Made by a program: the position numbers and the translations under genes. From contig NZ_CP027806.1 in the NCBI RefSeq assembly GCF_003353065.1, positions 3,616,501-3,680,500 on the forward strand: a stretch of 64,000 nt of DNA. Direction: 5' to 3'. Source of the DNA: Cyclonatronum proteinivorum. GTDB taxonomy: Bacteria > Bacteroidota > Rhodothermia > Balneolales > Cyclonatronaceae. This document shows, piece by piece, positions 9,477-61,574 of the stretch. The notes beneath the pieces were generated by a model that was given only the letters and a program-made list of their open reading frames with translations, was not told where the DNA came from and did no database searches. The stretch's first letter is position 1, and every line of letters starts with the position of its first letter.

Positions 9477-10334
9477 TTACGGAATTGTAATTTCCTGCTC
9501 AAAGATGACAGGCTCAGCTCTGATAATATCCGACGGGTTAAGGTCAGCTCGATCTGTCAGGAATTCAAATCTCACAATGTATGAGCCTGCTTCTAATGGT
9601 TCATCCAAAGGAATCGCAAGTCTGTTTAATATTTCAAAAGCAACGCCAACAGTTCCACTACCGGATACAACCGTTTGCCCCGAGCCGTTAATCAAAGAAG
9701 CTCGGAGGGTACCTAAAAAGGGACTGTTTCCGGTTCTTCTTAATGATGAAAACAATTGAATGTCGCTTTCATTTATCTGATAGTTGAAATCTTCAACAAC
9801 TATACCTGTCGTTACATTGCCTTTACGATAGTTGATTGAAAAGCCTTGGACGAATCGATAATTAATTCGCGTAACAAGCTCACCTTCCTGACGTTCTGCT
9901 TCAATTTCTTCAATAGTTCTGCCTGCTTCTTCAGAAGTTACCGTTAAACGGGCAAAATATGTCCCATCTTCTAAATCGGGTCCAGGAATAACCTGAATTC
10001 TGACTGTTCTTTGTTGTCCGCCTTCCAAGGTAAATCTTCTTGGGAAAATCCTGATTTTTTCTGAAAGATCGAATGCAGACGCATTGAAAGGATCGTCGTA
10101 CGTAACAGTTCTGTTTCCAACAGAATCAGAGATTACATACCCAAACAAAGATTCAATTGATACTTCTTGAGGCGCATCACCTCTGTTGCTTACAAAAAAT
10201 GATGTTGCGTTTTGCCTGTCACTAATAAAAATAGGAGTAGGTGCTACGCTTAGTTGTGCTTTAAGACTAACTGTTCCTAACCACAGCTGTCCAAAACGAT
10301 TTGAGATTTGGGAAATACCGGCTCCTCCGGCTAT
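9477..10334 (-). pseudogene. periplasmic pilus-assembly chaperone-like protein, 5' end lost at an IS insertion
   Basis: The frame encodes about 285 residues with a PapD-like immunoglobulin fold. It includes QLSVAPTPIFISDRQ after an apparent signal-peptide end (FGQLWLGTVSLKA), then SFFVSNRGDAPQEVSIES and IRIFPRRFTLEGGQQRTVRI, which match the first-domain strands that hold subunits. No ATG or GTG exists between the TAA at 10335-10337 and the mature region; the TTG at 10146 would remove the first strands. The start codon and most of the signal peptide were therefore probably displaced by the IS element next to it. The segment is visibly more AT-rich than the window average. It may be silent, or still expressed from an IS-borne start. 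Confidence 0.62.
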
Positions 10335-10363
10335 TTAGGACAGATTATATCGATTTTAGCAAA

Positions 10364-11548
10364 TCAATCCCCCCACTCAAATAAACTCATCTGTATGGGG
10401 GCTGTTTCAACAACGGTTTCTGGTGGTTTAAAAGGCTCGTTCAGCAGTTTTTGCAGATCAAACTTCACGAATAGGTTTACCCGAAGAAAGGCGACCATAT
10501 TGGACAAACACCAGCCATAGGTTGCGATGGCCTTCATGTACTTCAAGATCAGGATCGTAATCATCGCTGTCCAAATCTGAATGAGCACGGCATTGGTCGT
10601 TGTGCCCAGAAATGACTTGATTTTGAGCAGCTGCTTGATGTCTTTGAAGAACTGTTCGATATCCCAACGGGCTCTGTACAGCTCACTGATGGTGTTTGCT
10701 GTCCAGGAAAACTGGTTGGTGATCAGTTCGATGGTTTGATCTTTTTCGGCGTCATAAGCCACCACCCGTCGTAATTTAGCAGGATAGTTCTTATAGCTTT
10801 CAGGCTTGCTCAGTTCGACATATTCATCGATCAGTATGTGCTGATGGCGGTTGTCTGGCAGAGGTTTTTCGGCGAGCCGCTTGAACTGGACAGATTTTTT
10901 AAGGCGTATCACAAAATAGCTGCCCTCGGTTTTCCATCGGTACAAGGTCGGAAAATCAACATAAGCGCGGTCGGCAACGACTACTGAATCCGCTGGCAAC
11001 GACAATGTTTTGGCAACAGTGGAGTCGTGCGGCTTGCCATCGGTCATCTGTATTAAAACCGGCAGGCAACCGTCATAATCCAGCAGGGTATGTAGTTTTA
11101 TGGCGCCCTTCTTTTTGCGGAATTTGGCCCAATCGTACAGACCCAGACATAAACTGATGGTCGTTGAATCCAACAGCAGGATCTTGCTTTTGATCCTGAA
11201 GCGGGTTTGTCGGAAACGCCCCATTGCAGCCAGTTTCTTCATCATCACAAAGTAGTAGTCTTTGAAAAGGCCCCACTCGCGATGCTTATTTTGATAGGAA
11301 AGCGAGGATTTACAAGGTGCTCTGTTGACACCTAAATGGTTAAGATTGCCACTGGAGGATTTTAACCCGTTACAAACATCTCGCAGGGAACTTAACTTGG
11401 AGAACTGGCAAAACAGCATAGTCACCAAATGAGTCCAGCTGGTAATACCCTTAACATGTTTGTCTGAACTGTATTTTTTAACCAGCTTTTTGAAGCTTGG
11501 TCGGTCCAGGGTCTGCATAATCTGCGCAAATAACGTTACATTGGCCAT
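10364..11548 (-). CDS. IS4 family transposase (DUF4372 type)
   Basis: DDE transposase of 394 residues, apparently intact. The catalytic residues can be read directly: Asp127 in LLLDSTT, Asp193 in VVADRAY and Glu298 within the IS4 signature Y-x2-R-x3-E-x6-K (Tyr291, Arg294, Glu298, Lys305; YRARWDIEQFFKDIK). The N-terminal 75 residues match the DUF4372 domain found ahead of IS4 catalytic domains in Bacteroidota. The enzyme cuts and pastes its own element. It shares the direction of the chaperone-usher genes, so read-out from its promoter could reach the chaperone remnant. Confidence 0.92.
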   Translation of the reverse strand: MANVTLFAQIMQTLDRPSFKKLVKKYSSDKHVKGITSWTHLVTMLFCQFSKLSSLRDVCNGLKSSSGNLNHLGVNRAPCKSSLSYQNKHREWGLFKDYYFVMMKKLAAMGRFRQTRFRIKSKILLLDSTTISLCLGLYDWAKFRKKKGAIKLHTLLDYDGCLPVLIQMTDGKPHDSTVAKTLSLPADSVVVADRAYVDFPTLYRWKTEGSYFVIRLKKSVQFKRLAEKPLPDNRHQHILIDEYVELSKPESYKNYPAKLRRVVAYDAEKDQTIELITNQFSWTANTISELYRARWDIEQFFKDIKQLLKIKSFLGTTTNAVLIQIWTAMITILILKYMKAIATYGWCLSNMVAFLRVNLFVKFDLQKLLNEPFKPPETVVETAPIQMSLFEWGD

Positions 11549-11590
11549 AGTCAGTGATTTTTTAGGTTGGGTAGGACCTCCTAAAATAAC

Positions 11591-11612
11591 AAAGCCCCGG
11601 CTTCGGGGCTTT
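11591..11612. terminator. bidirectional terminator-like hairpin upstream of transposase
   Basis: Perfect 9-bp stem AAAGCCCCG/CGGGGCTTT with a GCTT loop, flanked by A/T on both sides. It sits 43 bp upstream of the transposase start, inside the probable IS end. Such hairpins often shield transposases from outside transcripts. Confidence 0.6.
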
Positions 11613-11710
11613 CACTGGCTACTTTTCAAACGTTTTGGACAGATGTGCATATATATATATATAGACCCATACGCTAAGTCACTGACCGATATTAAGTCAA
11701 TGCTTAAATA

Positions 11711-19950: not shown

Positions 19951-20262
19951 TGTGGTTCTCCGTCGTTTTTTTGGTTGATTCAACTGAGCGTGCTGCCCTG
20001 ATCCCGGGCCTGAAATGAACCCTTTCAAGAGGCACATGCACGCCATCGTCCCCGGTTCCGGGGCTAAAAGTGTTATTTTTACTGTTTAAAGATACGAAGT
20101 TTTCAGCGAACACATACGTAAAACTTAACGGTGTTAACCCGTATTATTCACAGTATCACATAAACTACACAGCTGCAATCTGTTTAGCTGGATATGCAGT
20201 ATCAGGGCAATGGTGCTCCGCAGCTCACCCGGGAGGCCGGAGTACTTCCCCGTCACATCGGG
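19951..20262. other. intergenic region with a degenerate mini-element end
   Basis: No gene seen. TTAA followed by CCCGTATTATTCAC at 20134-20151 matches the terminal repeat of the mini-elements at 52018, 54670 and 59827 with one difference; the sequence after it does not continue the element, and no partner end is visible nearby. Confidence 0.55.
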
Positions 20263-21370: not shown

Positions 21371-21406
21371 TTAGCCCGCATTGTTCGCCAGGGAAATTTC
21401 GCAGAC
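21371..21406. repeat. degenerate mini-element fragment
   Basis: TTAG then CCCGCATTGTTCGCC, followed by gggaaatttcgcagacc. The first part resembles the left end and the second the internal segment (gagaaatttcgcagtc) of the 226-bp element at 52018. It looks like a deletion remnant. Confidence 0.45.
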
Positions 21407-21455
21407 CCTGAACCATACGCCAATTTAGGCATTCAGCGCACGAAGCTAAAGTAAG

Positions 21456-52010: not shown

Positions 52011-52017
52011 GCCCTAG

Positions 52018-52243
52018 CCCGCATTATTCACCAAGAAATTTTCTTGCTGGCAAGGCGAAGCTGAAAACTCAGCGGAAGGGTACCTAAGTACCCTGAGCAT
52101 GAGTTTTCAGCTTCAACGCAGCCAGAGGAGAAATTTCGCAGTCTTTACACCACTCTCAAATTTGAGCTACCGGTGTTTTTCGCTAAGCCAAATTTTAGCT
52201 TACACTTAACAAATAAATTCTGTTTAATTGTGAATAATGCGGT
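52018..52243. mobile_element. miniature inverted-repeat element, copy 1 (226 bp)
   Basis: Ends CCCGCATTATTCAC and GTGAATAATGCGGT (13 of 14 bases inverted-complementary), bordered by CTAG on each side (52014-52017 and 52244-52247). It encodes no protein. Inside, CTGAAAACTCA (52061) pairs with TGAGTTTTCAG (52100-52110) around GGGTACctaaGTACCC, giving a strong hairpin. Confidence 0.85.
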
Positions 52244-52252
52244 CTAGTGCAA

Positions 52253-53461
52253 TCAGCCGCGTGACGAAATAGTCCGCGGATTCACCCCACCTTTCAGAAG
52301 CATATCAGCATTCCGGAAACCTGCCCGCAAAAAAGGGTACCAGGGCACTGAAGCCATCACCTGAAGGTCTTCGGTAAAAGTTGTTTGCTCATCGATAAAG
52401 CGCAGCACACGCTCGATCGGATTGTTGGCAAACAGGGCCTCAAAAACCGGCACAATTTGCCCGAGATCGCGGCTCAGAATATCCAGAAGCATGAGATCAT
52501 ATATGCGAAACCGTGCAGATGAATCGGCTTTACGCCGGGGCACCTCAGCGGCAGACAAGGCGTCAGCAATTTGACGGGCCTGCCGGTGTATGCGGGAAAA
52601 CGCATAGCCGGTTGAAGCTTTCGGAATTCCCGAAGCCGTCCCGATCAGCTGAACCCGCGCGCCTTGTGTTGCCTGATGAATGCTGTCTGCCATCGGAATA
52701 ACCCCCGTTTCGGATCGCGTGATGTGATAGCTGCCGGGTTCGATTCCGAAATACCGGGTGATATAATCCGCAATAGCGGTGTCATAGGCCGCCTCGGCAA
52801 GTACGGATGGCGAAAAAAGGGTGTATTCGATCAGGGCCTTGTTTTCTGAGAAAGGCAGCACGTAAACAAATGTAGCGCCGTCCTGTTGCGGCACGCGAAA
52901 ATCCATCATTCGTGCCGTTAGGGGATCAAAGACTGCTTTCTTTGTTTCTATTTCTATACCCTTAAAATGCTGCAGTAACTTAAAACGGGCACGACTTAAA
53001 TCCGGCTTGCCAAACGATTTAAAAAAACATGAAGCCGAAAAGGATTTCCCTCCTACATCAATTTTTACCCCCCGGGCGGTTTCCCCATATCCCTTAATGC
53101 TCCCCCTGATTACATCCACCGCCTCAAATTCACTAAGCTTTTTGCTCATGCGCGCAAAATAATCGCCGCCCTGCACGCAGTAGTACCCCATTTTTTCCAA
53201 AGGCGCTGTAAGGGCCGTATGTCCGGCGAAAATTTCAAGCTTGTGCCAGCTATGCCGTATCGGAACCGGTTCAGGCAGCCCGTCTTTTGACCAGAAACAC
53301 CACGTTTTACTTTGAGCATTTTGCTCATCGTCAGGAGACTCAATCAGGGCGATTGTTTTATCCTGCAGGCCTGGGTGTGTTGCAATGTGCCAGCATAACG
53401 ACAATCCGGACAACCCGGCGCCACCTATGATATAGTCGTAATGACGCTGGGAAAAAGACAT
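52253..53461 (-). CDS. crtY: lycopene beta-cyclase (CrtY/CrtL type)
   Basis: Closes beta rings on lycopene in carotenoid synthesis, a membrane-associated flavoprotein reaction. The 402-residue protein has the dinucleotide fold (YDYIIGGAGLSGLSL), QSKTWCFWSKDG, the FRVPQQDGATFVYVLPFS region, GVIPMAD and GTASGIPKASTGYAFSRI. No other carotenoid gene is near. It implies a pigmented cell. Its stop lies about 10 bp from mini-element copy 1. Confidence 0.9.
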   Translation of the reverse strand: MSFSQRHYDYIIGGAGLSGLSLCWHIATHPGLQDKTIALIESPDDEQNAQSKTWCFWSKDGLPEPVPIRHSWHKLEIFAGHTALTAPLEKMGYYCVQGGDYFARMSKKLSEFEAVDVIRGSIKGYGETARGVKIDVGGKSFSASCFFKSFGKPDLSRARFKLLQHFKGIEIETKKAVFDPLTARMMDFRVPQQDGATFVYVLPFSENKALIEYTLFSPSVLAEAAYDTAIADYITRYFGIEPGSYHITRSETGVIPMADSIHQATQGARVQLIGTASGIPKASTGYAFSRIHRQARQIADALSAAEVPRRKADSSARFRIYDLMLLDILSRDLGQIVPVFEALFANNPIERVLRFIDEQTTFTEDLQVMASVPWYPFLRAGFRNADMLLKGGVNPRTISSRG

Positions 53462-53499
53462 TTGATCAATAAGTATTGTTCAGCTGTCGCGGATGGGGA

Positions 53500-54327
53500 T
53501 TAGTGGGGCAGCATGGCAGCTAAAATTCTGCCGTCATGTTCAAAAATGCCCGCATACCAGACATCATCCCACTTCCAGGAGACGACGTCATGGCCATTAA
53601 ATTTTTTGATGAAGACATCATTGTGCGCATGAATATTTCCAAACGCTTCATCCAAAGGGTTGAGACCGGGGTGCGTATCAAGGTTATGCAGTTCTGACGC
53701 AAATATAAAAATTGGATCACCCTCAACCGTATGGTACTTTAAAAGCGGTGTATGGAAGCCTTCAAAAAAATCAGTGTAAAAAACCCCGACAAGTTCTGCT
53801 GCGAATATTTCAGGAACTGTGATATTGCAGCCATAGGCATCGCGCAGATAGGTTTGTGCTTCTGATACAGAATTCGGCCTGCCTTCGGGCTGAACAAAGG
53901 CACCGGCATGGTTCGTGAAATGAAGGTAAGTCAGCTCTTCAAAGGAGTGTGCAGCTTCTGAAGACGTACCAAACGGACTGTATTGCTGAACAAGAAACAG
54001 AAAGGCGGACAGGATTAAAATGGCTGCGAGCGGCATCCAGTACTTGTTGGGCTTGGTTTCTGCCTGACTGTTTTCCCGCAGGTAAGCTTCCACTTCTGCC
54101 TGCTCAGCCTGAAGCTTTTCTCGGATGATTTGATGAAGGTGCTGTGGCGCAGGTTCTTTTTTATAGTGAAGCTGCACAGTCTGTTTGGTACGCTTCTCAA
54201 TAGTTATGGCTTTTTCAATAGCCGGATCGCGTTCCGCAAGGTCTTTGAGCTTTTTCTTCTCATCTGCCGTCAGTTCGCCATCAGCAAAAGCCGTGATGAG
54301 TTCGCTCAGATTTTTTTTGTCCATCAT
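53500..54327 (-). CDS. membrane anti-sigma-like protein
   Basis: A 275-residue single-pass protein. The cytoplasmic N-terminus (LSELITAFADGELTADEKKKLKDLAERDP) matches the anti-sigma-domain/zinc-finger-like start of RsiW-type factors but lacks the His-x3-Cys-x2-Cys zinc motif. One membrane helix follows (WMPLAAILILSAFLFLV, residues 97-113), then about 160 periplasmic residues with no recognised fold. No ECF sigma gene is adjacent, which is unusual. It lies 38 bp upstream of crtY on the same strand, so regulation of or co-expression with pigment synthesis is possible. Confidence 0.65.
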   Translation of the reverse strand: MMDKKNLSELITAFADGELTADEKKKLKDLAERDPAIEKAITIEKRTKQTVQLHYKKEPAPQHLHQIIREKLQAEQAEVEAYLRENSQAETKPNKYWMPLAAILILSAFLFLVQQYSPFGTSSEAAHSFEELTYLHFTNHAGAFVQPEGRPNSVSEAQTYLRDAYGCNITVPEIFAAELVGVFYTDFFEGFHTPLLKYHTVEGDPIFIFASELHNLDTHPGLNPLDEAFGNIHAHNDVFIKKFNGHDVVSWKWDDVWYAGIFEHDGRILAAMLPH

Positions 54328-54669
54328 AGTAGGTACTACAAATTTCTGGTGTGTTTAATATCAAACAGCTCCCAAACACCGCGAAATTTATGGGCGGAAG
54401 CTATCAGACCTATAACAGCTATGTTGTGCCTGCTGTTCCTCAAACTGCTTTTTTATTTTCGGATAGCAATATGCTATTTCCACACGCCTCAAACCTGCAT
54501 ATTAAACTGACTGCGTGCCATATAGTAAACCAATTCACAAATCGTGAATCTTCAGCATTAGAAAAGTCAGGATTTACCCTTTGCTTACCATTCGTTGGCA
54601 GGTATTTCCGGACGCTTTGTTAAGCAAGATCCTGACGATTGATTCCCCCTACACAGCCGGTCGTCCTAA
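54328..54669. other. intergenic stretch upstream of the anti-sigma-like gene
   Basis: No gene seen; the plus-strand frame at 54351-54623 has no domain or ribosome site. Likely promoter region of the minus-strand anti-sigma-like gene. Confidence 0.4.
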
Positions 54670-54895
54670 CCCGCATTATTCACCAAGAAATTTTCTTGCT
54701 GGCAAGGCGAAGCTGAAAACTCAGCGGAAGGGTACCTAAGTACCCTGAGCATGAGTTTTCAGATTCAACGCCGCCAGCGGGGAAATTTCGCAGTCTTTAC
54801 ACCACACTCTATTTTGGGCTACCGGTGTTTTTCGCTAAGCTTATTATAGTCATATATTTAATAAACACATCCTGTTGAATTGTGAATAATGCGGG
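54670..54895. mobile_element. miniature inverted-repeat element, copy 2 (226 bp)
   Basis: Perfect 14-bp ends CCCGCATTATTCAC/GTGAATAATGCGGG with the direct repeat CTAA at 54666-54669 and 54896-54899. Because CTAA is not palindromic, the matching copies are good evidence of target duplication on insertion. The left two thirds are nearly identical to copy 1, the right third more diverged. Confidence 0.88.
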
Positions 54896-54940
54896 CTAAC
54901 ATCGACCCGTGTATTTAAGCGCGCTAATGTACATTGGACG

Positions 54941-54976
54941 AAAAAAAGCCCGCCTGACCTGTATGGTTAAGCGGGC
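54941..54976 (-). terminator. terminator of the TPR gene
   Basis: Stem GCCCGC/GCGGGC (54948-54953 with 54971-54976), followed on the minus strand by seven T. It lies 36 bp after the TPR-protein stop codon. Confidence 0.8.
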
Positions 54977-55011
54977 CTTAAATGCCGGTTTTCACTTCGT
55001 TGGTTTAAAAC

Positions 55012-55926
55012 TCAGGCTTCTGATTTACTCAGTTCGTCTACTTCTTTGAGACGCGCTTCGAGCAAATCAAAAAGCTCCATCGCATAAAAATTGCCTTCCT
55101 TACGGGTCTCCAAATCTGCAACGATTTCGCGCAACCGCTGAATGAGCCGGTCGGATTCGAAATCTTCAGACATTTCAACATAGCGGCTCAGCAACTTGCG
55201 GTCCTTGCGAAACGCCTTTTCGAAGTGCCGGAAAGCCTGTTTTGTGTAGTCGGGAAGGGCGCTCATAATCAGGCCCATGTTAAACTCCGACACCACACTT
55301 CCGGACTCCAGAATGCGGGCTTTTTTGATGTCACGCAAAGCGGCCTCCGCATCTCCCTCAAAAAAGTAAGCGAGCCCTCTCGATGACAGCGCCTCGACCT
55401 GCTGCGGGTCTTCTTCCAAAATGCTCGTAAATGCCGCAATGGAATCGGCATACCGGCCCGCATCATAGAGTAATTTTGCTTTTTGAAGCTGCGCAAAGTC
55501 GTTTTCCGGATCATTTGCAATGGCTGCTTCGGCATCACTTAAGGCCTTATCCCATTCCTTAGCGTTGCGAAGAAGCATGGCGCGGACGAGATAGGCCTCG
55601 GCATAGGTGCTGTCAAGTTCAAGTGCTTTATTGATATCCTCAAGCGCAGACGCCGGATCCTGCAGGGTTACATGGGTTTCTGCCCGGAATTTATAGGCAG
55701 CTTCAAAATCCGGATTCAGCTCTACAGCAAATGTAAAGGCGTCAAGCGCCTCCTCGTAATTTTCATCCCGCTGCTCTGAAACACCCAAAATGAACCAGTC
55801 TTCGGCATCTTTATCATCATTGCTTTTGGCTATGATTTGCCGGCAAAGTGTCTTAAGGGCCTTTTGCTGCGATTTGTTGAGTTCCCTGTTATCAAGGAGC
55901 CAGGGCAGCAATGTTTCTTTCGTCAT
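55012..55926 (-). CDS. tetratricopeptide repeat protein
   Basis: A 304-residue cytoplasmic protein without signal or membrane helix. At least four or five TPR units can be seen, e.g. YEEALDAFTFAVELNPDFEA, ASALEDINKALELDSTYAEA, WDKALSDAEAAIANDPENDF and YADSIAAFTSILEEDPQQVE. TPRs are protein-protein docking surfaces; the partner is unknown. Monocistronic with its own terminator. Confidence 0.85.
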   Translation of the reverse strand: MTKETLLPWLLDNRELNKSQQKALKTLCRQIIAKSNDDKDAEDWFILGVSEQRDENYEEALDAFTFAVELNPDFEAAYKFRAETHVTLQDPASALEDINKALELDSTYAEAYLVRAMLLRNAKEWDKALSDAEAAIANDPENDFAQLQKAKLLYDAGRYADSIAAFTSILEEDPQQVEALSSRGLAYFFEGDAEAALRDIKKARILESGSVVSEFNMGLIMSALPDYTKQAFRHFEKAFRKDRKLLSRYVEMSEDFESDRLIQRLREIVADLETRKEGNFYAMELFDLLEARLKEVDELSKSEA

Positions 55927-56254
55927 ATTAAAATTTAGGGTTGTGTCGTGTGATGGTTATTTTTGCCCATGCCAGTTACGATTCGCCTGCAGCATAAGCA
56001 AAAGACGTTTTCTTACTGTATTTCATTTGGCCCCTAAGTTATCTTAACCCGCATTATTCCCCAAGAAAATTTCCGGTGCCAGACTAATACAGAAAAGAAA
56101 GCCGATCCGTAACGGCATGCACTCAAAATTGTGAGCTTCCATACCCGTGACCGCGGAACCTGACAGCACCAGGCTTATTCTCATCTGAACTTCAGTGCTG
56201 CAACTGTAGCGTAACACATACCCATTCGCAGCACATATTTACACCCGCTTTATA
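55927..56254. other. intergenic region with a degenerate mini-element end
   Basis: Promoter region of two divergent genes. TTAACCCGCATTATTCCCC at 56044-56062, continuing ccaagaaaatttc, resembles the left end of the mini-element, but no opposite end follows. Otherwise nothing recognised. Confidence 0.5.
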
Positions 56255-57127
56255 ATGCGGATTGAATCCCGTACTCCTGTCCCCATCTATTTTAATATGA
56301 ATAATCTCCCGGCAATCGCAGAAAAAGAAACAGGTACTCCCCTTCCGCGTTTTGGACTAAAAACAGCCGCCTGCTGTCTTGTGTTGCTTTTTTTGTACAT
56401 CGCAGATCTTCGACCGGCCTCCGCGCAGGTGCTCAACATCGAAAGCCTGCGCATGGACGCGGATACCTCCAAAACCTGGGCCGGCAGCCTTACTTTTGGG
56501 TTTTCCGCCTCAAAGAACGACAGTGAAACTATTCAGCTCAGCAACGACGCCACCCTCGTTCATCTCGGCCAAACCCACTCCTACCTCCTGCTCAGTAGCC
56601 TGAATCTGATTTCCATTGATGATGAGCTCGTCAATAACGGGCACATCCACCTGCGCGGCACGCTCGGATACCGGCAGCGCTGGTCGCCGGAGCTGTTCAC
56701 CCAGCTTCAGTACAGCCGGGACTGGGGACTCAAACGCCGGGCACTGCTTGGTGGCGGCATCAGGCACAACACCTTTCAAAAAGAACATTTTAGAGCCGGT
56801 ATCACTACGGGACTGATGTTCGAGCATGAAGTCTGGCACCCCGAAGAAGCCCCGCGCGCTGAGTACAATCGCCTAAAAAGCACGACTTCACTGCTCACCC
56901 GCGGTAAGCTGACAGAAAGCACCAGCCTTTATATTGTGGGCTACTATCAGGCTGAACCGGAGCGTTTTCTCAGTCCGCGCCTGACAGCAAATGTAGAGCT
57001 TAGGTTTACAGTTAGCCGGTATGTCCGCTTCAATGCGCAGTTCAGCACCACCTACGACTACAACCCGGTCCCTGATGTCGAAAGCTGGATTTACAGTTTC
57101 CGCAACAGCTTTACCATTGTCTTTTAG
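56255..57127 (+). CDS. DUF481 outer-membrane-barrel family protein
   Basis: Exported protein of 290 residues (276 if the ATG at 56297 is used). The signal peptide is TAACCLVLLFLYIADLRPASAQ. The mature part matches DUF481: TWAGSLTFGFSASKNDSETI, TLGYRQRWSPELFTQLQYSRD and a C-terminal WIYSFRNSFTIVF with terminal Phe, typical of BamA-assembled barrels. Function of the family is unknown. It lies 196 bp upstream of the thioredoxin lipoprotein gene. Confidence 0.82.
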   Translation: MRIESRTPVPIYFNMNNLPAIAEKETGTPLPRFGLKTAACCLVLLFLYIADLRPASAQVLNIESLRMDADTSKTWAGSLTFGFSASKNDSETIQLSNDATLVHLGQTHSYLLLSSLNLISIDDELVNNGHIHLRGTLGYRQRWSPELFTQLQYSRDWGLKRRALLGGGIRHNTFQKEHFRAGITTGLMFEHEVWHPEEAPRAEYNRLKSTTSLLTRGKLTESTSLYIVGYYQAEPERFLSPRLTANVELRFTVSRYVRFNAQFSTTYDYNPVPDVESWIYSFRNSFTIVF

Positions 57128-57323
57128 CGCGCAAGCTGCCGGTTGTTTACGAAAGGATTGCTTCCGTCCTGTTGACCACGACCTTCACCCCGTCCGGTCT
57201 CTTACTTATTTAGCTTAAAAAGCATTATCTTGGTTAGTTATACGGGCAACTACAACCTCACATCGGTGGCTGCCTTCTTCATCAACATCTTTCCTGAGAC
57301 CTCAGATACACCTACACAACCCT

Positions 57324-57866
57324 ATGAAGTTCAAATTTATCTTCCTGCTACTCGTCATTCCTGCGCTCCTGCTGGCGTGCAGTCCGCCTGAAGTAGAGCG
57401 CCGCATTCCCAGCGAGTTTTTGGGCGGTGAAAAGTTCGTACCGGAAAATGCTTTCACAAACTGGCTGGATCTTGAAGAAGCCATCGAAAAAGCGCAGCAA
57501 GCCGATAAAAAAATCCTGATCGATGTGTACACCGACTGGTGCGGCTACTGCAGACGTATGGACGCAGAAACCTACACCAGAGACCGCGTTCAGACCGCCA
57601 TCAATGATCACTTTTACGCTGTACGGATCAATGCCGAATCTTCTGAGCGGGTAAATTATCTGGGGCAGGTCATGAGCATGAGTGACTTTGCCATGAGTCT
57701 GGGCGTTACGGGCTTTCCAACAACAATCTTTCTCACGAATGAAGGCGAGCCGCTCGGCTTCCAGCCCGGATTTATTGATTTCAACACCTTTGAAAGGTTG
57801 CTGGTGTACGTAGGCACGGAAGCTTACGAGCAAAACATTTCTTTTGACGCCTTCACGCTTGACTAA
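57324..57866 (+). CDS. thioredoxin-fold lipoprotein
   Basis: Periplasmic thioredoxin-like protein of 180 residues. Lipobox LLLAC with Cys19 predicts a lipid anchor. The redox motif is WCGYC (residues 72-76) in VYTDWCGYCRRMD, and the cis-Pro is in GVTGFPTTIF. It stops 10 bp before dsbD, so the two are co-transcribed; DsbD is the likely electron source. Substrates may be cytochrome c apoproteins or oxidised outer-membrane proteins. Confidence 0.88.
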   Translation: MKFKFIFLLLVIPALLLACSPPEVERRIPSEFLGGEKFVPENAFTNWLDLEEAIEKAQQADKKILIDVYTDWCGYCRRMDAETYTRDRVQTAINDHFYAVRINAESSERVNYLGQVMSMSDFAMSLGVTGFPTTIFLTNEGEPLGFQPGFIDFNTFERLLVYVGTEAYEQNISFDAFTLD

Positions 57867-57876
57867 CCCCTGAATC

Positions 57877-59706
57877 ATGAACCCATTTTCCCTCGAGCGT
57901 TTACTTAGGCTATCCGTTAAAAGCATGCTCCTTTTGGTGCTTTTAGCCGTATTTCCCTTTGAAAATACAACTGCTCAGTTTATTTCAAGCGGTGACAAAC
58001 TCAACCTTGCGACGGCCCTCAATGTGGATCAGGTTGAACGCGGAGCTGAGTTCAAAGCGGTTGTTGAGCTCAACCTCGAGTATCCCTGGCACGTTAACGC
58101 GCATATCCCTACGCTGGAATGGCTGATCCCTACAGAGCTGCAGCTGCGCCGTTCAGATCACATTATTCTGACAGATATCCGGTATCCGCCACCGCTAACC
58201 ATGACCTTCGGTTTTGCGGATGAGCCCCTTGATGTATACGAAGAAACCTCACCCATCTATCTGAGCCTGCGCACCTCTTCGTCAACGCCCCTGGGAGAAT
58301 ACATCCTCCGGGCAGACCTTACCGTGCAGGCCTGCGACGACATGCAGTGTCTGGCGCCGGCAACTGTTGAAGTGGAAATTCCCATCTCAATTGTGGAAGC
58401 CGGCAGCGGCATGACGCCTGTCAATGAAGCGCAGTTTCTGGCTTTCGACGACGCGCAAATCAGTAGCGGCACACAGGGCGATATTTCTGCACTTTTTGAC
58501 GGCGGCCTGTGGCTGGCTTTTATCGGGATTTTCCTCATTGGTCTTGCCCTTAACCTGACCCCCTGTGTGTATCCGATGATTTCGGTAACCGTCTCGCTTT
58601 TCGGCGGGCAACAGGATTCAAACACACTGCGGGTATTTGGTAAAGCTGTTGTGTACGTTCTCGGTATCGCGACCATGTACTCGGTTTTGGGAGTCATTGC
58701 AGCGCTAAGCGGCGGCCTGTTTGGCAGCTGGCTTCAAAGTCCCTGGATGCTGGGCTTCATCGGTTTTCTGATGTTCGGGCTGGCCCTGAGCATGTTTGGG
58801 CTGTATGAAATTCAGATGCCCTACTGGCTTACCAGCAAGCTCGGCGGCAGCGGTAACACAACCGGACTGATCGGCCTGTTCATATCAGGCCTTGTCGTAG
58901 GAATTTTTGCTGCACCCTGCGTAGGTCCGCCCATCATCGCGCTGCTGGCCTATGTTGGTACCGTTGGAGACCCCGTATTTGGATTTTGGGTATTCTTCGT
59001 TTTGTCCCTCGGTCTTGGCTTACCCTATCTTATACTTGGTACTTTTTCCGGACTGATGCAGAAACTGCCGAAATCAGGCACCTGGATGATTTGGGTGAAG
59101 AAACTCTTTGGTATCGTGCTGATTGGCGTTGGCGGGTTCTATCTTGGTCTTGCACTTTTCCCGCAACTCGTTGAATGGGTGATAGTAGCCACGCTGCTCA
59201 TTGGCGGAATCTACATCGGCTTCCTGGAGCGCAGCGGCAAAGGCAACACCGGTTTCCTTGCGACCAAATACGCTACCGGCCTTGTGTCGGTAGTTCTTGC
59301 TGCTATGTTCTACATGAACCTGCAGAAGGAAGGTATTATCTGGGAAACCTACTCTGAAGATAAGCTTGAAATTGCCCTCGAGCGCGGTCAGCCTGTTATG
59401 ATCGATTTCTACGCTGACTGGTGTATACCCTGCCTCGAACTCGAGCGTATCACCTTCACCGATGAAACCGTAGTCAATGCCACACAGGATATGATGCGGC
59501 TTAAGGTGGACCTTACCAACTTCGATTCGCCGGAATCAGAAGCCCTGCGACAACAGTACAATATTGCCGGTGTGCCTACGATTGTGTTTATCGACGATCA
59601 GGGCAACGAAGTAACGCAGGCACGGGTCATCGGCTTCCTCCGGCCCAACGATTTTCTCGACAGGGTTGCGATGGCCATGCCTTCTGAACTCACCCTGCAC
59701 GAGTAA
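57877..59706 (+). CDS. dsbD: thiol:disulfide interchange protein DsbD
   Basis: Moves electrons from cytoplasmic thioredoxin across the membrane to periplasmic thiol proteins. Of 609 residues, the N-terminal alpha domain (about 30-175) contains CDDMQC, the middle has a CcdA-like eight-helix domain with NLTPCVYPM and FAAPCVGPP carrying the membrane cysteine pair, and the C-terminal thioredoxin domain has DWCIPCLELE near residue 515 and AGVPTIVFI. A signal peptide precedes. All six functional cysteines are present. It is the second gene of the operon, followed by a terminator. Confidence 0.93.
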   Translation: MNPFSLERLLRLSVKSMLLLVLLAVFPFENTTAQFISSGDKLNLATALNVDQVERGAEFKAVVELNLEYPWHVNAHIPTLEWLIPTELQLRRSDHIILTDIRYPPPLTMTFGFADEPLDVYEETSPIYLSLRTSSSTPLGEYILRADLTVQACDDMQCLAPATVEVEIPISIVEAGSGMTPVNEAQFLAFDDAQISSGTQGDISALFDGGLWLAFIGIFLIGLALNLTPCVYPMISVTVSLFGGQQDSNTLRVFGKAVVYVLGIATMYSVLGVIAALSGGLFGSWLQSPWMLGFIGFLMFGLALSMFGLYEIQMPYWLTSKLGGSGNTTGLIGLFISGLVVGIFAAPCVGPPIIALLAYVGTVGDPVFGFWVFFVLSLGLGLPYLILGTFSGLMQKLPKSGTWMIWVKKLFGIVLIGVGGFYLGLALFPQLVEWVIVATLLIGGIYIGFLERSGKGNTGFLATKYATGLVSVVLAAMFYMNLQKEGIIWETYSEDKLEIALERGQPVMIDFYADWCIPCLELERITFTDETVVNATQDMMRLKVDLTNFDSPESEALRQQYNIAGVPTIVFIDDQGNEVTQARVIGFLRPNDFLDRVAMAMPSELTLHE

Positions 59707-59732
59707 CATTAGTCAAAAAACATTTATCTTTA

Positions 59733-59768
59733 GGCAGCTCCTCTTTTGGGGGGCTGCCTTTTTTTTTG
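59733..59768 (+). terminator. terminator of the dsbD operon
   Basis: Stem GGCAGC...GCTGCC with flanking CC/GG pairs (59733-59758) followed by ten T. It lies 27 bp after the dsbD stop. Confidence 0.88.
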
Positions 59769-59826
59769 GAAACCGTGATTGCAACAATACTATTTTTTTG
59801 ACCACTACCGCGGGTGATATTATTAA

Positions 59827-60006
59827 CCCGCATTATTCACAATTAAACAGGATTTATTTGCTATAATGTGTGTTTGACTTTGGCTTAGTAAAATACACAG
59901 GTATCCCAAATTTGAGTTTGGTGTAAAGACTGCGCACCGAGCGTAGCGATTCCCGCGCAGCGAAATTTCCCCGCTGGCAAGAAAATTTCTTGGTGAATAA
60001 TGCGGG
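59827..60006. mobile_element. miniature inverted-repeat element, copy 3 (180 bp, inverted, internally shortened)
   Basis: Perfect 14-bp ends with TTAA on both sides (59823-59826 and 60007-60010). Inverted relative to copies 1 and 2: its right part ccgctggcaagaaaatttct matches their left end. About 46 bp of the central hairpin are missing. The 5' end of the phosphodiesterase gene overlaps its right end. Confidence 0.88.
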
Positions 60007-61574
60007 TTAAGGCCAGATCAGGCACAAACCGCACAGAACTATTTGATAAGATGTTAGCTAATACTTTTAAGATTTTACCAGGACAGCCTCCCACCCCTCA
60101 TTTTTATTCAACTTGCGCTTCTGAATACTGTTTAAGGGTTTTGTTCATCCTATTTTTGCTTCTAACCTTTCCGCTCAGCCTTTCCCCAGCCAAAGCCAAT
60201 GCGCCGCAGGCAGAGCATTCTTCTGAAATTCGCCCGGCCCATGTCGTTGTGATTAGTATTGACGGTTTTCAGGCAGACATGCTTGAAACCTACGAAGGGC
60301 TGCTCCCCAACCTTACGGCTCTTGCTGCCAAAGGCGTTATGGCTGACGGCTTCATCCCCACAAACCCATCCCTGACCTGGCCCAATCATACCAGTATGGT
60401 TACGGGAACAGGTTCGCGTGATCACAGCGTCATCTTCAACGGCATGGTTGAGCGAACCGGGAGCGGACTTCCGCTTAGGTTTGAAGCAAACCTCCATCAG
60501 CACCAGCTTGTGGCTACCGGCACCATTTATGACGCGCTGTACGAAGCCGGTCTTAGAACCGCTGCCATAAACTGGCCCGCAACCGCCGGCAGCACCACCA
60601 TTGCTGACAATATACCGGATGTTCCCGATCCGATTGGTGAAGCAACAGAAGACTTTTTGTGGGATTTATTTGATGATGAGCTGCTCGATGACTTCACCAG
60701 CTTTGCTCTGTGGCAGTATGATCACGCGGGACGCGATCAGTTTTGGACAAACGCGGCAGGATGGCTCATCCACAACCGTATGCCCGACCTGCTTCTGCTC
60801 CATCTGCTGCAGCTCGACTCCATGCTGCACCGAAACAGCACAGATTCAGATGAAGTGCTTGGAGCGCTGTCCAATACAGACGCCCTTATCGGTAAGATGG
60901 TTTCCGATTTAAAAGAAGCGGCGCTGTACTATCAGACAGCTCTTTTCATCGTATCTGATCACGGCATGGTAAATACCCCCCAAACCCTGCTGCCCAATCG
61001 TCTTTTACAGCAAAACGGCATGCTTGAAGTCTCCGAAGACGGGCAGGCCATTGGGGGTTCCGCTCAGGTACACGCTGTTGGTGGGTTTGGGATGGTATAT
61101 TTTCAGGATCCGGAAAACGATGGTTTTATTGAAGAAGTAGCTGCCCTCTTTGCACAAACCTCAGGCATTGCCAGGGTTTTACGGCAGGATGAGTTTGAGC
61201 GCTACGGCTTGCCGAACCCCGGGACACATCCGCATGCGGGACAACTCGCCTTGTTCAGCGAATGCGGAACTTCGATGAACATCGCCCTGCGCACGCAGAC
61301 ACATCCGCACGATACCATTGTGCCGAGTATTGAAAATGATTTTGCACTTGCTCATCACGGTTTTTTTAATGAGTGTGCTTCCATGAGCGGGCTTTTTATA
61401 GGGTATGGTCCCGGATTACAAACGGAGACGACGGTTCCCGCCATTTCCATAAAAGACCTCGCACCAACCCTTGGCCTTTTGCTCGGCGTCCCGTTCGAAA
61501 CACCCGGATCTTCCCCCCTGTATGAAGTGCTTCATCCCTCCCTGCGTCATGGGCAAGTACAGGAGAACCCGTGA
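60000..61574 (+). CDS. type I phosphodiesterase/nucleotide pyrophosphatase family protein (alkaline phosphatase superfamily)
   Basis: Exported metallo-hydrolase of up to 524 residues. Metal-site residues: Asp in VVVISIDGFQADML, the Thr nucleophile region PSLTWPNHTSMVTG, SDHGM and HHGFF near the C-terminus, matching the NPP pattern. The hydrophobic segment VLFILFLLLTFPLSLSPAKA looks like a signal peptide, but about 45 residues precede it in the longest frame. ATG 60000 lies inside mini-element copy 3; ATG 60051 is an alternative. The original start may therefore have been altered by the insertion. Likely substrates are nucleotide or phosphodiester compounds in the periplasm. Confidence 0.82.
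   Translation: MRVKARSGTNRTELFDKMLANTFKILPGQPPTPHFYSTCASEYCLRVLFILFLLLTFPLSLSPAKANAPQAEHSSEIRPAHVVVISIDGFQADMLETYEGLLPNLTALAAKGVMADGFIPTNPSLTWPNHTSMVTGTGSRDHSVIFNGMVERTGSGLPLRFEANLHQHQLVATGTIYDALYEAGLRTAAINWPATAGSTTIADNIPDVPDPIGEATEDFLWDLFDDELLDDFTSFALWQYDHAGRDQFWTNAAGWLIHNRMPDLLLLHLLQLDSMLHRNSTDSDEVLGALSNTDALIGKMVSDLKEAALYYQTALFIVSDHGMVNTPQTLLPNRLLQQNGMLEVSEDGQAIGGSAQVHAVGGFGMVYFQDPENDGFIEEVAALFAQTSGIARVLRQDEFERYGLPNPGTHPHAGQLALFSECGTSMNIALRTQTHPHDTIVPSIENDFALAHHGFFNECASMSGLFIGYGPGLQTETTVPAISIKDLAPTLGLLLGVPFETPGSSPLYEVLHPSLRHGQVQENP

Follow-up and report, generated by a model that had tools for sequence, protein, structure and literature searches.

Three MITE copies of 226, 226 and 180 bp lie in the window, the stretch of 64,000 nucleotides of Cyclonatronum proteinivorum that was analysed (positions 3,616,501-3,680,500 of a genome consisting of one contig of 4,294,247 bp, or 4.29 Mb). 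Their coordinates and lengths agree with those given in an earlier note on this DNA, and relic ends of the same type were recognised beside them. In window positions, the features are:

20134-20151, + strand: solo relic end, TTAA + CCCGTATTATTCAC; the end starts at 20138
21371-21420, + strand: degraded relic, TTAG + CCCGCATTGTTCGC, then a MITE-like GAAATTTCGCAGACC stretch; the end starts at 21375
52014-52017: left target duplication CTAG of copy 1; the right one is at 52244-52247
52018-52243, + strand: MITE copy 1, 226 bp; ends at 52018-52031 and 52230-52243 (13/14)
52032-52138, + strand: conserved hairpin of copy 1 (model R1, 117.2 bits)
54666-54669: left target duplication CTAA of copy 2; the right one is at 54896-54899
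54670-54895, + strand: MITE copy 2, 226 bp; ends at 54670-54683 and 54882-54895 (14/14)
54684-54790, + strand: conserved hairpin of copy 2 (model R1, 122.7 bits)
56044-56074, + strand: truncated relic end, TTAA + CCCGCATTATTCCCCAAGAAAATTTCC
59823-59826: left target duplication TTAA of copy 3; the right one is at 60007-60010
59827-60006, - strand: MITE copy 3, 180 bp, reversed, with the hairpin mostly deleted and one 28-bp repeat unit
59937-59954, - strand: core of the 28-bp repeat unit (GGGAATCGCTACGCTCGG) of copy 3
59961-59992, - strand: remnant of the hairpin base of copy 3 (model R1, 23.8 bits)

The shared 14-bp inverted ends described earlier, CCCGCATTATTCAC, were found in all three copies with one deviation, the right end of copy 1 (ACCGCATTATTCAC), which agrees at 13 of the 14 positions. 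The identical 4-bp flanks CTAG, CTAA and TTAA were likewise seen at all three. A fourth end, truncated, occurs at 56048 (TTAA followed directly by CCCGCATTATTCCCCAAGAAA) within the interval covered by the earlier note, and end-like sites with at most three mismatches number 15 in the window, against 6.4 +/- 2.4 expected. Folding of the whole 226-bp copy 2 (MFE -96 kcal/mol, z = -9.3) bears out the long hairpin claimed for the 226-bp copies, and the longest open frame entirely within a MITE copy has 32 codons, in keeping with the view that these elements lack coding capacity and are non-autonomous.

It was also observed that the frame of the gene downstream of copy 3 (window 60000-61574) reaches back to an ATG within the right end of that copy (AATAATGCGGG); the insertion may supply the start codon of this gene.

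A genome-wide family and its target site

Ends with at most one mismatch occur 217 times in the whole genome (107 + 110), compared with 0 + 0 for a reversed-pattern control, so that further copies are present beyond the window. In a BLAST search with a 226-bp query, 40 of 138 candidates were scored, and the full-length copies that matched at 84% identity or better number at least 40. From fetched stretches that cover 371 kb of the genome, 70 elements could be paired. These range from 74 to 282 bp, with 226 bp the most frequent size (31/70) and further classes near 254 and 282 bp; a 28-bp tandem repeat, ACTTCGTGGGAATCGCTTCGCTCGGTGC, accounts for the three sizes, with no unit in the first, one in the second and two in the third. 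Sites spaced by exactly 28 bp come up repeatedly both here and in a relative (G008). Nearly every unpaired end of this genome belongs to a MITE that has been truncated or interrupted, and the reading of these ends as halves of a long IS was rejected. The MITE query had zero matches in plasmid and phage collections, a literature search with the end sequences returned nothing relevant, and a description of the family was not found in the literature searched. These elements form a true MITE family, which belongs to the class Balneolia and has about 100 copies in this genome. The earlier note was correct in its essentials; the genome-wide scale, the conserved hairpin and the 28-bp unit lay beyond its view.

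Identical 4-bp flanks were found in 52 of the 70 paired elements, a count that carries a small bias from the preference for matching flanks where the pairing left a choice, as against a mean of 16.3 and a maximum of 28 in 2000 permutations of the right flanks. Since only one of the 70 pairs matches over 5 bp, the duplication is 4 bp long. The duplicated 4-mers are TTAA (24), CTAA (12) and TTAG (11), along with GTAG, TCAG, ATAG and CTAG, and the pattern YTAR, previously drawn from the window copies, fits 48 of these 52 duplications. An IS630-like duplication of TA over 2 bp is ruled out, as all four bases match and the fifth does not. The spread over TTAA, CTAA, TTAG and others departs from the strict TTAA target of a piggyBac-type element.

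An empty site in the same genome was also available for comparison. One copy (C1:1703146-1703371) is nested within the arm of an older MITE (...GATGAC CTAA, the MITE, CTAA ATGTTAGTTTAAATTT...), whereas the homologous arm near C1:1662.5 kb is unoccupied (...GATCAC CTAA AGTATAGTTTAAATTT...); CTAA is thus present once when the site is empty and twice when it is filled, as the earlier note would have it. Joined reading frames of at least 150 aa contain only two of 45 copies, compared with 125 of 225 control points placed in the same flanks. Intergenic insertion with a 4-bp duplication is shown by these data. The genes on either side of the copies are tandem in 24 cases, convergent in 9 and divergent in 9, and within the tandem pairs the two orientations number 13 and 11. 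No orientation bias relative to neighbouring genes was therefore found, and a cis-regulatory role with fixed orientation is unsupported.

The central hairpin across the order

Several genera of the order have MITE-type ends in abundance. In one relative (G040) the elements are 228 bp long, with ends CCCGGATTATTCAC/CCCGAATTATTCAC, and their copies are 97-99% identical among themselves, which points to recent spread in that genome; such ends were also found in G058 (CCTGCATTATTCAC), G008, G006 and G048. Two of the relatives, G008 and G009, match Balneolia MAG contigs (L282, L280). When a covariance model of the hairpin was run over 296 genomes of the phylum, 13 were matched, 12 of them within the order. 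Several genera have a single hairpin copy (E 1e-13 to 1e-22); because most of these single copies, at 212-230 bp, still have YTAR-like flanks and the MITE ends, they are regarded as relic insertions and not as a cellular gene. Two further members of unusual composition were noted, namely a 476-bp member in G058 (L146 332-807) with a TTAG duplication, whose MITE ends enclose additional sequence of about 250 bp, and a MITE end in G008 (L090, 652 onwards) that directly abuts a fragment of RHS-like coding sequence.

The central hairpin, 107 nt between the MITE ends, is conserved by structure across the order. Alignment A2 (19 hairpins, five genera) was made without structure, and 94.6% of its cells are paired, compared with 33-46% for slid structures; two-sided change is seen in 18 of its 43 pairs, a number that none of 500 shuffles reached. 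In A5 (18 hairpins, eight genera), which was aligned to the model and hence leans towards structure, two-sided change is found in 26 of 43 pairs (127 cells), again reached by 0 of 500 shuffles. Conservation in A5 is higher in the unpaired columns, that is the loops (92%), than in the paired columns of the stems (76%), and the conserved loops read CAAGGCG, CGGAA/TGAGCA and CAACGC. It is this structure-conserved central hairpin, with compensatory changes in its stems and near-invariant loops, that is new here. At the gathering score Rfam gave one tRNA only in the window and nothing credible for the MITEs. An asymmetry of G-U over A-C pairs is weak as proof of an RNA role at positions with a Watson-Crick majority (23 vs 9; 16 vs 11).

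This conservation most likely reflects selection that acts on the element. As the copies have no fixed orientation to host genes, the hairpin is inferred to benefit the element itself; compensatory changes would keep its shape, and the shape may aid transposition, or tolerance of the element as DNA or RNA. Paired changes in palindromes can also arise through template switching, and it is conceivable, if rather doubtful, that quasi-palindrome correction of this kind keeps the arms complementary without any selection on the hairpin. Rearrangements between arms do happen, as seen in a copy (C1:969750-969975) that has its hairpin tip in the opposite orientation to the rest of the family, and many of the two-sided changes fall among copies of one genome. 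Correction would, however, be expected to erase mismatched internal loops, yet the loops are the best conserved part across the eight genera, which argues against template switching as the sole source of the paired changes. What lies between the ends of a bacterial MITE is often dismissed as an unimportant leftover; with its shape conserved in eight genera, selection on bacterial MITE hairpins, and its purpose, becomes testable.

A different possibility, to which we would give about the same modest weight, is that the hairpin is a functional module of structured RNA (or single-strand DNA), belonging to a widespread superfamily and captured between transposon ends in Balneolales. The sole covariance-model match outside the order belongs to another order (G190; L257, hairpin 1501-1598) and has different outer arms. 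BLAST with this sequence led to intergenic hairpins in Proteobacteria, and the MITE model scored 42.8 bits for one from Comamonas (L278, 237-335), beside 40.8 bits for L257. Repeats from the rlmL-ycbX and pheM-pheS intergenic regions of E. coli (L277, L279), which may be box C, scored about 17 bits each with R1 and share the tip GGAG-CGTAC-loop-GTACG-TGAG. The Comamonas hairpin, around which no MITE ends were seen, matches Rfam sX9 (RF02228) on the opposite strand at 40.9 bits, slightly short of the cut-off of 44. The MITE, L257 and L278 hairpins share GCAAGGCG, CGGAR-stem-TGAG and CAACGC, and the E. coli repeats resemble them weakly; this likeness across phyla may reflect common descent, convergence or chance. 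If the hairpin were such a module, a mobile element would be spreading a conserved RNA structure, and the possible tie to the hairpins of Proteobacteria (sX9 and the E. coli repeats) suggests that repeats known under separate names may have one structural module in common.

Candidate transposases and comparison with known systems

The full-length IS with the same ends that the earlier note had implied was not found: no longer element with both the MITE ends and a transposase was present in the searched stretches of the genome or of its relatives, several of which are drafts. Multicopy IS often drop out of draft assemblies. In this genome the IS1380 family (PF13701) is represented by six elements, whose ends, CCT(G/C)AATCCGTGA, differ from those of the MITEs and rule them out as the parent; one of these copies has a 5-bp duplication, TCAAT. 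In relatives, IS1380 ends read CCCAAATCCGTCA (G008), CCTAAAATCCGCA (G058) and CCCARATAATGCAG (G009). When species genomes were scanned with an IS1380 alignment, six loci came up, and the closest likeness was found in one of these, an IS1380-type element of 1483 bp from a Bacteroidota MAG (L281), which encodes 442 aa and has the ends CCCAGATTGTTCA / CCCAGATTTGTCA, the second also written CCCAGATTTGTCATTAGAAATTTTCTT. Measured against the MITE end consensus (CCYGNATTNYTCA, 11 informative positions), these ends fit at 10/11 and 9/11 positions without being identical to it, IS1380 ends of relatives fit at 7-10/11 and those of three other IS types from this genome at 5-7/11, the best-scoring IS1380 ends having been chosen after several had been inspected. 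The right end of L281 also has GAAATTTTCTT in common with the MITE left arm (shuffle p ~0.007, eight ends), and its duplication is 5 bp (ATAAT) compared with 4 bp in the MITEs. The IS1380 part of the resemblance suggested earlier thus holds in part, by virtue of L281 and not of the resident elements, and an IS1380-type transposase for the MITE ends is favoured, not shown.

It seems unlikely that the parent was instead an IS5-group or IS701-type element and that the CCY start in common with IS1380 is a coincidence. Duplications of 4 bp at YTAR are recorded for both of these families, in agreement with the pattern of exactly 4 bp found here, and this genome has several DDE_Tnp_1 and IS701-type elements. 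Against this, MITE ends bound none of 28 DDE_Tnp_1 matches in this genome (G000), none of four in G040 and none of nine IS701-type (DDE_5) matches, and the lower fit quoted above is that of three such IS. In both genomes the PF01609 and PF13546 elements are all ruled out as the parent, none having MITE ends; the MITE ends near DDE_Tnp_1 and IS701-type elements belong to separate or interrupted MITEs. Among 60 relatives, none of the unusual (non-MITE-like) ends opens a transposase where examined.

The window itself contains an IS (about 10281-11649) that encodes a 394-aa DDE_Tnp_1 transposase and is present in three genome copies of about 98% identity. Its ends, ACAGCTGTCCAAAACG, rule it out as the parent. 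IS701-type elements (C1 at about 327.6 kb and about 385.4 kb; L210-L215), with ends CTGGAGTTTGGCTAAGTTCT, are situated at palindrome tips. Two of them sit nested in a MITE, at the hairpin tip, and others are at hairpins such as CCCTGTAGGG or CCCTGAAAGGG; these elements seem to target hairpins.

RAYT proteins are held to act in the service of REP/REPIN sequences. That a single-copy, non-mobile (domesticated) transposase without flanking ends moves the present elements in a similar manner is very improbable: the ends do persist across the order though the autonomous copy was not found, but a gene for such a transposase was not identified, the single relic copies in several genera look like extinction and not upkeep, and the 4-bp duplication points to a DDE enzyme rather than RAYT.

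The preferred account is that of a MITE family moved in trans by a transposase, most likely of the IS1380 type, with a hairpin that benefits the element, and taken as a whole we hold it to be probable, if by no means secure. A cut-and-paste (DDE) transposase would bind the 14-bp ends CCYGNATTNYTCAC and insert the element at YTAR with a 4-bp stagger, which would leave the 4-bp duplication. The enzyme, most likely of the IS1380 family, may since have been lost from the genome or have diverged.

Other bacterial MITEs such as Correia/NEMIS and RUP (PMC2229807, PMC10969869) resemble this family in that they are short, without transposase, bounded by inverted ends and flanked by a duplication; they are also intergenic, and their transcripts would form stable stem-loops. 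IS630-Spn1, whose ends match those of RUP, has been proposed as its parent (PMC2229807), whereas here the parent was not found, the target is YTAR, 4 bp long, and covariation of the internal hairpin extends over an order. With IS1380 elements (PF13701) the MITEs share the CCY start and further end positions, L281 being the best match, but the IS1380 elements seen have a transposase, which the MITEs lack, other end sequences and duplications of at least 5 bp where readable. The Xanthomonas sRNA sX9 (RF02228) has a near-cut-off match only to the Comamonas hairpin, and the MITE hairpins reach no Rfam family. ERIC/IRU, the 127-bp enterobacterial repeat (PMC2229807), is likewise mobile and intergenic, with an imperfect hairpin that is long and conserved, and is set apart, by description, by its 5'-TA termini and other host range. 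The BrickBuilt MITE of Porphyromonas gingivalis (PMC4596501), also compared by description, has 19 copies and contains a short tandem repeat, of 23 nt compared with 28 nt here; in the present family the tandem unit is optional and stands beside a conserved hairpin.
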